A stretch of DNA of 8,952 nt from Candidatus Atribacteria bacterium (GTDB lineage Bacteria; Atribacterota; JALVIU01), in contig JALVIU010000299.1 in NCBI GenBank assembly GCA_027028665.1, positions 1 through 8,952 on the forward strand. Reading direction: 5' to 3'. The notes beneath the pieces were generated by a model. The model was not told the DNA's origin, ran no database searches, and was given only the letters and a program-made list of their open reading frames with translations. The translations under genes were made by a program, and so were the position numbers. Of the stretch, positions 3,933 through 7,095 are shown piece by piece. Positions within the stretch are counted from its first letter, which is position 1. The number at the start of each line of letters is the position of its first letter.

Positions 3933-3961
3933 TTGAAAATTTAGCTTATAAATGATAAAAT
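3933..3961 (+). promoter_or_regulatory. Possible promoter of the caspase-lipoprotein unit
   Basis: TTGAAA (3933-3938), a 17-base spacer and TAAAAT (3956-3961) fit the sigma-A pattern. Transcription would begin near 3967-3969, giving almost no leader for the TTG at 3971 but about 24 bases for the alternative TTG at 3992. The surrounding DNA is very AT-rich, so chance matches are likely. A weaker alternative is TTGTAC (3883-3888) with TATTTT (3907-3912). Confidence 0.45.
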
Positions 3962-3970
3962 AGAAAAAAC

Positions 3971-6325
3971 TTGAAGGGATGCTGGCAAAAATTGAAAAAA
4001 ATAATTCTTCTCTGTCTTTTCTTGACTATATCATTGCTCATTCCTTTTAATCTCTGGGCCAATACTTATACATTTATTATAGGAATAGATAAATATCCCA
4101 ATCTTCATAACGGTAATCTTCAGTTTGCTGTATCTGATGCAAGACTCTTTAGATATGTAATACAGAAGGAATTTTATATACCTGATGATAATATTTATAT
4201 GTTATTAGATGAAGAGGCAAAAAGAGAGAATATAAGAAACACTATTACAATAAAGATACGGGATAAACTTACATCAGATGACACTCTTATAATTTACTAT
4301 TCAGGTCACGGCACAAGAGGTGAAGACCTTCCGCCATATGATGAAAGTGATGGATTGGATGAATATATAATACCATATGATGCCCAATCTGGGATAGATA
4401 AAAATGGAGAAGAGATCATACTCTCTTGGTCTGCTATAAGAGATGATGATTTCTCCTCATGGATTACATCCCTTCCTGTAAAAAATATTATTATACTCTT
4501 TGACTCATGTTACTCAGGAGGAGCAGAAAAAGGCATAAAAGGATTTTTCCTAAAACCTTTGGCGACAAAGGGAGGAGACAGTTTTTTCCAGGACCTCGAA
4601 AAGGCAGTCACGAAAAAGATAGTAGTCTTTTTAGCATCCTCACGTGCCGATGAGAAATCCATAGAATCAACAAGGATAAATCATGGATATTTTACCTATG
4701 CACTATATGAGGCACTAAAGCAAAAAGAAAAAACAGATACAAACAAGGATGGGTCTATTTCTGTAGATGAAATATATAAGGCAGTAAAGAAAAAGGTAGA
4801 AAGGGTAACCCACAAAAAACAACATCCTACTTTGCAAATATCCTCAAAGGATGTAGATCCAAAAGATATAGAATTTCTACCTATAAAAAAGGAATCCTAC
4901 ATAGAGATTACTACTATTCCCTCATCTGTAGAGATATATATTGATAAAAAGTTTCTGGGAAGAACTCCCTTAAAACAGGTAATTAATCCTGGATACCATA
5001 TTCTATCTTTAGTAAAAAAGGGATATAAGAGATATGAGGAACTCATTGCTTTGTCTACAGGAGAAAAGAAAAAAATAAATGTTACACTGAAAAAAGAAAA
5101 TACAAAAAAGGAAGAGGTAGACTTATCGATAATTTTAAAGGGAAAGGATGGGACACTTCTCTCAGGGTACAAGGTCGCACTTACAGGCACACCTTATGCA
5201 CAAGTAACCAACAAAAGCGGAGAAGCAAATTTCTCCAACATAGAGAATCAAAATCCTATAGTAATAGTATTTGACAAGACAGACAATAGAAAGATTATAT
5301 ATACAACACAAATCTCACTAAAAGAAAGCAAAAACAAAATTGAGCTTGTAATAAATAATGTAAATATTGCCTCTCCTTCTTTCATAATCAGTCCGCAAAA
5401 AGAGACATATACATTTTCTATATTTACCGTCCCTCAATTAAAGATTAAAATAAAATACCCAAAAGGCTGGAAAGTAGTAAAAAATAACATAAAAAAGGGC
5501 ATACTATTTAACTCAGAAAGTTCTGAATCCTATCTTTTCCAAGTCTATAGGACAAAAAGATCAAAAGATATATCTACACTTACAAAATATACACTCGTTC
5601 AAAAGAAATGGCTATCTCAACATAGAAAAGATTATAAAGAATTAAAATTGGACAAAGATGAAAAAATAGGAGAGAAAACTGGAAACATACTTATATATTC
5701 TTATACTTATAAAGATAATATATATGAGGTAATGGAGTTTTATTTTGAAGGACCAGATAATGCCTATTATACAGCACTATTAGATGTACCAGAGGGAAAG
5801 CTGGATAGCCTTATATCACTATTTGAAAAACTGATAAGAGGGATAGAATTTGAATCATATAATACTACCTTGTTCTCTCTATTTGAGTCCCCAGAAAAAG
5901 GATTCAAGATCCTGTACCCAAAGAAGTGGAAAGTTGAGACACCAAATGAAGACATTGTATTTTATGTAAAAAATGGGACAAAAGAGGCTATACAGGTCTT
6001 AGTTCATACACTTATAAAAGGGATGGGTGTGGAAGATTATGCAAAAAATACAGACACCTGGCTGGGAAAAAACCTGAGAAATTATAAGAAATTAGTAGAT
6101 ACAAAAATAGAAAAACCTATAAAGGGTATAAAAAGGATCTATACCTATAAAAAGGGAAAAGATGCAAGATATGTAGAAGAGTATTACTTTGTAAGCAAAT
6201 ATAAGGACAAAAAGATGGGATATACCTTGATATTTGAAAGGTCAAAGTCTCTAACTAAATCTCAAATAGAAGAGTTTAATAAGATAAAGATATCTATATT
6301 AAAGAACTTTCATATTGGAGAATAA
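3971..6325 (+). CDS. Exported caspase-fold (peptidase C14, metacaspase-like) protein with EF-hand-like, PEGA and two PsbP-like domains
   Basis: The product has 784 residues. A basic start and a hydrophobic stretch (residues 8-30) ending LWA form a signal peptide. The caspase domain spans about 31-300: GID (38-40), the catalytic His in YYSGHG (H113), an acidic ESDGLDEYIIPYDA segment (125-138) and the catalytic Cys in DSCYSGG (C180). Asp178 beside the Cys resembles metacaspases, which cleave after Arg/Lys. Residues 256-267 form a canonical EF-hand loop (DTNKDGSISVDE). A PEGA domain (about 309-375) and an Ig-like/carboxypeptidase-regulatory-like segment (about 383-462) follow. Two related domains, about 488-627 and 640-782, each open with a YPKxWKV motif as in PsbP-like proteins. 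The start is uncertain: TTG 3971 lacks a Shine-Dalgarno, while TTG 3992 gives MKKIILL with weak AAGGGA upstream; both keep the signal peptide. Six bases separate it from the lipoprotein gene. Its biological role and substrate are unknown. Confidence 0.88.
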   Translation: MKGCWQKLKKIILLCLFLTISLLIPFNLWANTYTFIIGIDKYPNLHNGNLQFAVSDARLFRYVIQKEFYIPDDNIYMLLDEEAKRENIRNTITIKIRDKLTSDDTLIIYYSGHGTRGEDLPPYDESDGLDEYIIPYDAQSGIDKNGEEIILSWSAIRDDDFSSWITSLPVKNIIILFDSCYSGGAEKGIKGFFLKPLATKGGDSFFQDLEKAVTKKIVVFLASSRADEKSIESTRINHGYFTYALYEALKQKEKTDTNKDGSISVDEIYKAVKKKVERVTHKKQHPTLQISSKDVDPKDIEFLPIKKESYIEITTIPSSVEIYIDKKFLGRTPLKQVINPGYHILSLVKKGYKRYEELIALSTGEKKKINVTLKKENTKKEEVDLSIILKGKDGTLLSGYKVALTGTPYAQVTNKSGEANFSNIENQNPIVIVFDKTDNRKIIYTTQISLKESKNKIELVINNVNIASPSFIISPQKETYTFSIFTVPQLKIKIKYPKGWKVVKNNIKKGILFNSESSESYLFQVYRTKRSKDISTLTKYTLVQKKWLSQHRKDYKELKLDKDEKIGEKTGNILIYSYTYKDNIYEVMEFYFEGPDNAYYTALLDVPEGKLDSLISLFEKLIRGIEFESYNTTLFSLFESPEKGFKILYPKKWKVETPNEDIVFYVKNGTKEAIQVLVHTLIKGMGVEDYAKNTDTWLGKNLRNYKKLVDTKIEKPIKGIKRIYTYKKGKDARYVEEYYFVSKYKDKKMGYTLIFERSKSLTKSQIEEFNKIKISILKNFHIGE

Positions 6326-6331
6326 GAGATA

Positions 6332-7051
6332 GTGAAATATAAGGATATAGCCCTTATATTATTGATTACTATAATAACTGCAGTTACAGGGTGTACTATA
6401 GAATTTGTAAATCCTCCCCTTACATCACCTACTCCAATTAATAGTCCTACTCCAATTATATCAAAATATCCTATACATAAAAATATTACTGCAACAATAT
6501 TCTGGGTAGGAGAAGGTGCAGATGAGGATAATGCATTTATCTCAAATGTCCAGAGTGCATGGGATGATAGATGGATGGAACACTATGGGGGGATAGATAA
6601 TCCAGACAATCGTACAGGGTATTATCCAATGGGCTTTATTCCTCACGAAAATCCATTTTACTTTGCACTTCCCTACAATGATTTCAAAGAAGGCAAAAGA
6701 AAAAAAGAGGCCTATGATGTAGTGTACTGGGCAAAAGAGAAAATGTGGGGTGAGTATGAATCCATGTGTAAAAATAGATGGATAAAAATAATAAAGGGAA
6801 ATAAAACAGTATATGCACAATGGGAAGATGTAGGGCCCTTTAATGAAAATGATTGGCCATATGTATTTGGAGATTCTCTTCCCCAAAATCAGATAAACAA
6901 TCGTGCAGGACTCGATGTATCTCCTGCTATACATGATTATCTTGGACTCTCAGGTATGGATAAGGTAGATTGGCAATTTGTAGATGAGGATAATGTACCA
7001 TATGGACCATGGAAAGAGATCATAACTACATCAGGGATCTATTGGGAATAA
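6332..7051 (+). CDS. Lipoprotein of unknown function, C-terminal domain possibly double-psi-barrel-like
   Basis: The 239-residue product has a type II signal peptide: basic start, hydrophobic residues 6-18 and lipobox VTGC, with Cys21 as the predicted lipid-bearing residue. A short Pro/Ser/Thr-rich stalk (about 28-48) contains SPTPI twice. The globular part (about 52-239) is rich in Trp and Tyr. I do not recognise the family with certainty. AQWEDVGPF (162-170), RAGLDVSPAI (191-200), LGL and VDWQFVD (212-218) recall the order of motifs in RlpA/expansin-type double-psi beta-barrels, where Asp residues in the GPF and LDVS segments are important. This is a weak analogy and needs a profile search. 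The GTG start at 6332 lies six bases after the caspase stop and has GGAG 11 bases upstream. The gene is in the same frame as the caspase gene. Co-transcription and an envelope location suggest the two proteins may act together. Confidence 0.75.
   Translation: MKYKDIALILLITIITAVTGCTIEFVNPPLTSPTPINSPTPIISKYPIHKNITATIFWVGEGADEDNAFISNVQSAWDDRWMEHYGGIDNPDNRTGYYPMGFIPHENPFYFALPYNDFKEGKRKKEAYDVVYWAKEKMWGEYESMCKNRWIKIIKGNKTVYAQWEDVGPFNENDWPYVFGDSLPQNQINNRAGLDVSPAIHDYLGLSGMDKVDWQFVDEDNVPYGPWKEIITTSGIYWE
6428..6458 (+). repeat. Direct repeat coding the SPTPI stalk of the lipoprotein
   Basis: CCTACTCCAATTA occurs at 6428-6440 and again, identical, at 6446-6458, an 18-base period. It encodes two SPTPI units in the Pro-rich linker after the lipobox. 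This suggests linker length has changed by repeat duplication. Confidence 0.7.
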
Positions 7052-7086
7052 AAAAGAAAGGGGCACTATAGTGCCCCTTTCTTTTT
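7051..7086. terminator. Bidirectional intrinsic terminator between convergent genes
   Basis: Bases 7051-7086 are a perfect inverted repeat centred between 7068 and 7069, with GC core GGGGCAC/GTGCCCC around TATA and outer A- and T-tracts. A T-run follows the core on the plus strand (TTTCTTTTT) and on the minus strand, so it can end both the lipoprotein transcript and the molybdenum hydroxylase transcript. It starts at the last base of the lipoprotein stop codon and ends nine bases from the other gene's stop. Confidence 0.88.
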
Positions 7087-7095
7087 AGGGGGTGC

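Follow-up and report, generated by a model that had tools for sequence, protein, structure and literature searches.

An open reading frame from an Atribacterota MAG encodes a caspase-fold protein with an N-terminal export signal and, behind the protease domain on the same polypeptide, a PEGA domain and two PsbP-like repeats, and across this phylum other exported caspase-fold proteases recur beside genes for PsbP-fold proteins. We see an even chance that the protein would act as a calcium-responsive, Arg/Lys-specific envelope protease whose PEGA/PsbP-like half docks onto a partner, as one instance of a habit of the phylum.

The window, by which we mean the whole 8952-bp stretch of DNA analyzed here, is the entire contig C299 of a 1.79-Mb, 413-contig MAG, the sole member of its own family among the 50 Atribacterota genomes compared. 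The caspase gene encodes 784 residues from a TTG start at position 3971 to a stop at 6325 on the plus strand (Table 1), and a stop codon four codons 5' of the TTG means that no earlier start is possible. An extended −10 promoter-like site lies at 3933-3961 with a predicted start point ~3 bases 5' of the TTG, such that the caspase mRNA would be nearly leaderless; the promoter scan of the window as a whole ran at chance level (17 sites found versus 16.9 expected). The plus strand also carries a putative lipoprotein gene. This lipoprotein is a near-orphan: 291 genomes yielded a single weak relative, and Pfam, NCBIfam, PADLOC, the PDB, and plasmids gave no match; its C-terminal motif, DxGPF ... 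AGxDxSPAxxxxLGL (DVGPF ... AGLDVSPA ... LGL in the window), may resemble RlpA-type barrels. On the minus strand, sequence and Pfam matches identify genes for ornithine carbamoyltransferase, an ornithine-racemase-like protein, rpsI, and rplM, as well as a molybdopterin hydroxylase (xanthine-dehydrogenase-like) gene that is convergent with the caspase-lipoprotein unit. A strong hairpin behind the lipoprotein gene, partly overlapped by a site at 7071-7095 in the terminator scan, is likely the terminator common to this unit and the convergent gene.

Table 1. Features of the caspase-lipoprotein unit, in window coordinates.
Feature	Position	Strand	Residues	Description
N-terminal export signal	3971..4063	+	1-31	Basic n-region, then 16-residue hydrophobic stretch; helix 2-23 in model
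C14 caspase / metacaspase-like domain	4064..4885	+	32-305	PF00656, phmmer, model
Catalytic His113	4307..4309	+	113	SGHG motif; aligns with metacaspase catalytic His; nearly invariant in alignment A6
Catalytic Cys180	4508..4510	+	180	DSC motif; aligns with DSCHSGG of metacaspase-4; nearly invariant in alignment A6
EF-hand loop inside p10	4736..4771	+	256-267	DTNKDGSISVDE; fits canonical 12-residue pattern
PEGA domain	4901..5101	+	311-377	PF08308, E 2.3e-13, 50.3 bits versus cut-off 20.8
Possible Ig-like / CarboxypepD_reg-like beta domain	5114..5365	+	about 382-465	
PsbP-like repeat 1	5405..5851	+	479-627	52.7% identical to repeat 1 of P0002; high-confidence model
PsbP-like repeat 2	5855..6322	+	629-784	PF01789, E 1.8e-5 alone; 36.7% identical to P0002 repeat 2; CyanoP matched with whole model
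Putative lipoprotein	6332..7051	+		GTG start, VTGC lipobox; 6 bp 3' of caspase gene, same transcription unit
16-bp hairpin with flanking A and T runs	7051..7086	+		Read directly in sequence

The initial annotation of this DNA described a metacaspase-like protein with a signal peptide and an intact His113/Cys180 dyad, each of which holds, and proposed a cell-surface or periplasmic protease. The N-terminal hydrophobic signal, a helix in the AlphaFold2 model, supports the prediction that the product is exported to the envelope or outside, as does the lipoprotein gene immediately downstream. The protease domain matches Peptidase_C14 (PF00656) over residues 35-290 (E 6.7e-21; 75.5 bits against a cut-off of 21.4) and is related by phmmer to metacaspase-4 (E 2.2e-8). 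This domain is modeled with high confidence, and the best structural matches to residues 28-308 are Arabidopsis metacaspase 4 and 9 (Z 23.8-25.4), with the fit to metacaspase 4 (6w8r) aligning 226 residues at a Z of 25.4 and an rmsd of 2.3. A caspase fold around His113 and Cys180 is thus supported, and the dyad, in the SGHG and DSC motifs, is intact. Two further residues, D178 of the DSC motif and D56 of an SDAR motif, are invariant among nine compared caspases; we take these to be the two acidic residues expected for a metacaspase Arg/Lys S1 pocket. A DGLDE-x3-P-x-D motif is common to the window caspase and metacaspases, and the linker between p20 and p10 is Lys-rich and of low model confidence. 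Single-protein scans of viral contigs and genome contigs returned no relative of the window protein, phages gave one weak caspase match only, and the broad caspase alignment A3 contained no stretch conserved enough for scanning.

Most studied bacterial caspase-fold proteases act intracellularly, in death or defense. That the window protein is such an effector, similar to the intracellular bacterial caspases that have EAD or NACHT partners, is very improbable, since it is predicted to be exported, its neighbors are housekeeping genes and a lipoprotein, and no EAD, NACHT, CHAT, or gasdermin gene adjoins it in the window. These features outweigh a match to the PADLOC caspase model (E 1.1e-12) and the fact that related plasmid caspases adjoin EAD1 proteins. 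The NCBIfam model of the EACC1-associated caspase (NF047832) scores 63.5 bits on the window protein, below its cut-off of 140.

The EF-hand-like loop noted in the initial annotation fits the 12-residue calcium-loop pattern. It sits between two helices of p10 and is part of the caspase domain instead of a domain of its own. No Pfam EF-hand model exceeds 14.8 bits on the window protein, where the cut-offs are 25 or more (25.9 for the 14.8-bit match), and we therefore refer to an EF-type loop instead of an EF-hand domain. The strict motif is found in 25 of 105 C14 domains, versus 0.09 expected from shuffles, and the loop occupies the same position in other C14 domains across bacteria. It is not a new feature, because seven archaeal orthocaspases have been reported to carry an EF-hand motif (PMC6426788).

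Together, these elements suggest how the protease may work. After export, high external calcium would load both the metacaspase acidic site and the p10 EF loop and favor the active form; a calcium dependence of this kind is suggested by the loop and the DGxDE motif. The enzyme would then cut after Arg or Lys, a specificity that we infer from what is known of metacaspases and from the acidic residues D56 and D178, with self-cleavage in the p20-p10 linker possibly occurring first.

Behind the protease, the PEGA domain proposed from sequence is supported by a PF08308 score above the cut-off; in the model, it has a pLDDT under 50, and this region has no homologs in the underlying alignment. The following segment, about residues 382-465, had been called Ig-like. 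It forms beta strands in the model, with pLDDT mostly under 60 and again no homologs in the alignment, and matches CarboxypepD_reg-like families weakly (E about 0.1), such that its assignment to an Ig-like domain is weakly supported. In the same genome, contig C10 encodes two adjoining exported PEGA proteins of 201 and 418 aa (L073 730-2617).

The two C-terminal repeats are PsbP-like, as annotated. PsbP (PF01789) matches the whole protein in two stretches (E 3.7e-5; 24.2 bits versus a cut-off of 23.5); scored alone, repeat 2 exceeds the cut-off (25.3 bits) and repeat 1 falls below it (15.6). The repeats share 31.6% identity, are modeled mostly with pLDDT above 85, and match the cyanobacterial PsbP protein CyanoP (2xb3) at E 1.2e-7 and a TM of 0.71 by target length. 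Other contigs of the genome encode a single PsbP-like protein (C30) and two further exported double-PsbP-like proteins, P0002 (342 aa) and the contig-truncated P0003, one of which is 44% identical; these paralogs do not adjoin the caspase gene. The existence of the two exported double-domain paralogs makes the caspase C terminus look acquired by fusion. Identity between the first repeats of the caspase protein and P0002 (53%) and between their second repeats (37%) exceeds that between repeats 1 and 2 of the caspase protein (32%), which indicates that the pair was duplicated before it was fused to the caspase. We find it hardly credible that the fusion is an artefact of assembly. The window is one whole contig of a fragmented assembly, but an uninterrupted frame of 788 codons shows no visible boundary between the caspase and PsbP parts, and the paralogs on other contigs are, at 44% identity, too different to have given rise to a false join.

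PsbP-like modules are associated with exported proteases in other members of the phylum. Profile A2, which is composed of the six repeats of the source genome alone, finds 16 domains in 13 other Atribacterota. Seven of these are C-terminal PsbP_2 domains of exported trypsin-like proteases (Pfam-confirmed for three), a fusion present in seven genomes, all of one family, and three adjoin exported TPR-CHAT genes (G026, G039, and G041). With a profile partly trained on the loci counted, a PsbP-like domain lies within 5 kb of 8 of the 12 Atribacterota CHAT genes and 6 of the 7 WD40-C14 genes (0.2 and 0.25 expected at random placement, respectively), whereas A2 alone gives three CHAT neighbors. The nominal probabilities of 4e-13 and 1e-8 overstate the case, both for this reason and because the genes are related by descent. 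Most of the PsbP-like genes so linked are immediate co-directional neighbors, and the pattern spans four families. None of the 15 other Atribacterota C14 genes has a PsbP-like domain within the same distance, and we therefore rejected the idea that every C14 gene of the phylum is coupled in this way.

A recurrent cassette emerges from these loci, in which genes for an exported single-PsbP protein of ~280 aa, a caspase-fold protease, and a double-PsbP protein of at least ~400 aa follow one another on one strand with small gaps. The protease is either TPR-CHAT (families f4, f5, and f7) or TPR-WD40-Big_7-C14 with an EF loop (f4 and f6), and one genome (G049) carries both types in tandem. By hhalign, the source-genome repeats are linked to the first repeats of the double proteins and to the 280-aa, stand-alone, and trypsin-linked domains (E 1e-9 to 1e-15, and 7e-9). 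A single group (E 9e-37) unites the second repeats with the related C-terminal domain that the WD40-C14 proteins carry; its link by sequence is weak. The model of a double partner partly resolves this: repeat 1 resembles CyanoP (Z 15.5), LpqN (Z 14.8), and MTC28 (14.6), and repeat 2 resembles Apa (Z 13.2), with strands and helices in the same order.

The pairs also occur in Atribacterota without a protease, which indicates that the module is not protease-specific, and a constant association of the pair with a protease was rejected: G020 has the pair alone, and in G016 an ANK-PsbP-TPR protein replaces the protease. At the latter locus (L144 7281-13511), the protease position of a cassette with the same layout is occupied by an exported 1204-aa ankyrin-PsbP-PsbP-TPR protein, which is followed by a 282-aa PsbP-like protein and a DUF4919-PsbP-PsbP protein. 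DUF4919 (PF16266) is likewise fused to double-PsbP partners of WD40-C14 cassettes (L135 7898-9661 and L132 13679-15865). In G006, the double-PsbP partner gene beside a CHAT gene is split by an in-frame TAA (L112 6215-7231). A tree, tentative because of long branches, places the window C14 domain outside both the WD40-C14 clade of its phylum and the small C14 proteins, and a single clade of the window caspase with WD40-C14 was weakly rejected (p-AU 0.036). This implies either repeated origins of the coupling or an uncertain tree; should the topology be correct, the joining of caspase and PsbP-like modules took place at least twice.

The pairing with PsbP-like genes is conserved in four families of the phylum, which points to a specific partner, and metacaspases are known to cut narrowly after Arg/Lys. 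Both points count against an ordinary extracellular digestive protease used for peptide scavenging, with accessory domains that only stabilize it or attach it to the surface. We regard this as quite unlikely, even though such an enzyme would share the export signal and intact dyad, and many lineage-specific accessory domains are found among prokaryotic metacaspases (PMC3501461). In our preferred reading of a docked envelope protease, the PEGA domain, beta segment, and two PsbP-like repeats would instead form a docking arm to an envelope partner; possible candidates are the co-transcribed lipoprotein and the stand-alone double-PsbP proteins. This role is suggested by the fusion and the gene neighborhood, and the partner binding proposed in the initial annotation draws indirect support from the stand-alone exported paralogs and from the coupling of PsbP-like domains to proteases in the phylum and beyond.

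Outside Atribacterota, the association takes other forms. About 75 caspases, mostly WD40-C14, have no PsbP-like open reading frame on the stretches fetched, and end 10-76 residues past the domain or run into other sequence; a general coupling of WD40-C14 proteins to PsbP was accordingly rejected. A three-family search of 386 genomes gave no adjacent pair among the matches listed. PsbP-like domains are fused outside the phylum to M48 proteases in four genomes and to a transglutaminase-like protein. The M48 metalloproteases (L250, L253, L254, and L255) are exported or lipoprotein-like, with the PsbP-like domain behind the protease domain, and two of them have LysM. In addition, locus L246 (3276-5882) encodes a Ser/Thr kinase, likely a receptor, in which three PEGA domains and a TcaA-type domain are combined with a PsbP-like domain at the C terminus. 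This kinase, from another phylum, has PEGA and PsbP-like domains in tandem in an architecture typical of receptors, and small lipoproteins, LpqN and DcrB among them, are relatives of the PsbP fold. Both observations would suit a single-protein sensor-effector, in which the PEGA and PsbP-like parts sense a ligand or envelope stress and binding releases the protease. We consider this unlikely, as the window protein has no membrane anchor to relay a signal and the stand-alone PsbP paralogs have no effector.

Each single part of the window protein is already known. Prokaryotic metacaspases have 112 architectures, 93 of them confined to one group (PMC3501461), and by this measure the window protein alone is one more unusual domain set. 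According to the initial annotation, this exact combination is not known to have been characterized, and we likewise found no exported C14 protein with PEGA and tandem PsbP-like domains in the literature searched. What is new lies in the surroundings: across Atribacterota, exported caspase-fold proteases are coupled with PsbP-fold proteins, a pattern that goes beyond a single odd protein and that we also did not find in the literature searched. Atribacterota would habitually attach PsbP-like modules to such proteases, by fusion or by gene neighborhood; such a habit hints at a so far undescribed means of targeting proteolysis outside the cell. Somewhat more tentatively, we propose that a widespread and so far undescribed extracytoplasmic proteolytic system exists in the phylum, where PsbP-fold proteins may be the obligate partners or substrates of caspase-fold proteases (both C14 and TPR-CHAT) and, separately, of a trypsin-like enzyme, with the window protein as its single-chain form. 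Atribacter has an unusual intracytoplasmic membrane (PMC7736352), and a phylum that exports several unrelated caspase-fold proteases with PsbP-fold modules would point to regulated proteolysis on the calcium-rich side of a poorly understood envelope. Because other phyla also have PsbP-fold proteins fused to M48 proteases, these proteins may have had an ancestral non-photosynthetic role as adaptors or targets of exported proteases.

Among known systems, the window protein is most similar to the Peptidase C14 family and the orthocaspases, with which it shares the fold, the His/Cys dyad, the aspartate before the cysteine, the DGxDE motif, the EF-type loop in p10, and the frequent presence of accessory domains; it differs from them in its predicted export and in its C-terminal PEGA and tandem PsbP-like domains. 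Arabidopsis metacaspase 4 and 9 are ~25% identical to the window caspase, but these plant proteins lack a signal peptide, PEGA, and PsbP domains. The Craspase protease and other known TPR-CHAT proteins are cytosolic. The TPR-CHAT proteases of Atribacterota, which belong to clan CD and have a caspase fold, are paired with PsbP-like genes, and the intact ones start with an export signal. By contrast with these, the window protein belongs to C14 and not to CHAT. Both repeats of the window protein and the partner proteins of the cassettes belong to the PsbP / CyanoP / DcrB / LpqN fold group, from which these modules differ in that they are in tandem, are fused to or encoded beside proteases, and occur without a photosystem.
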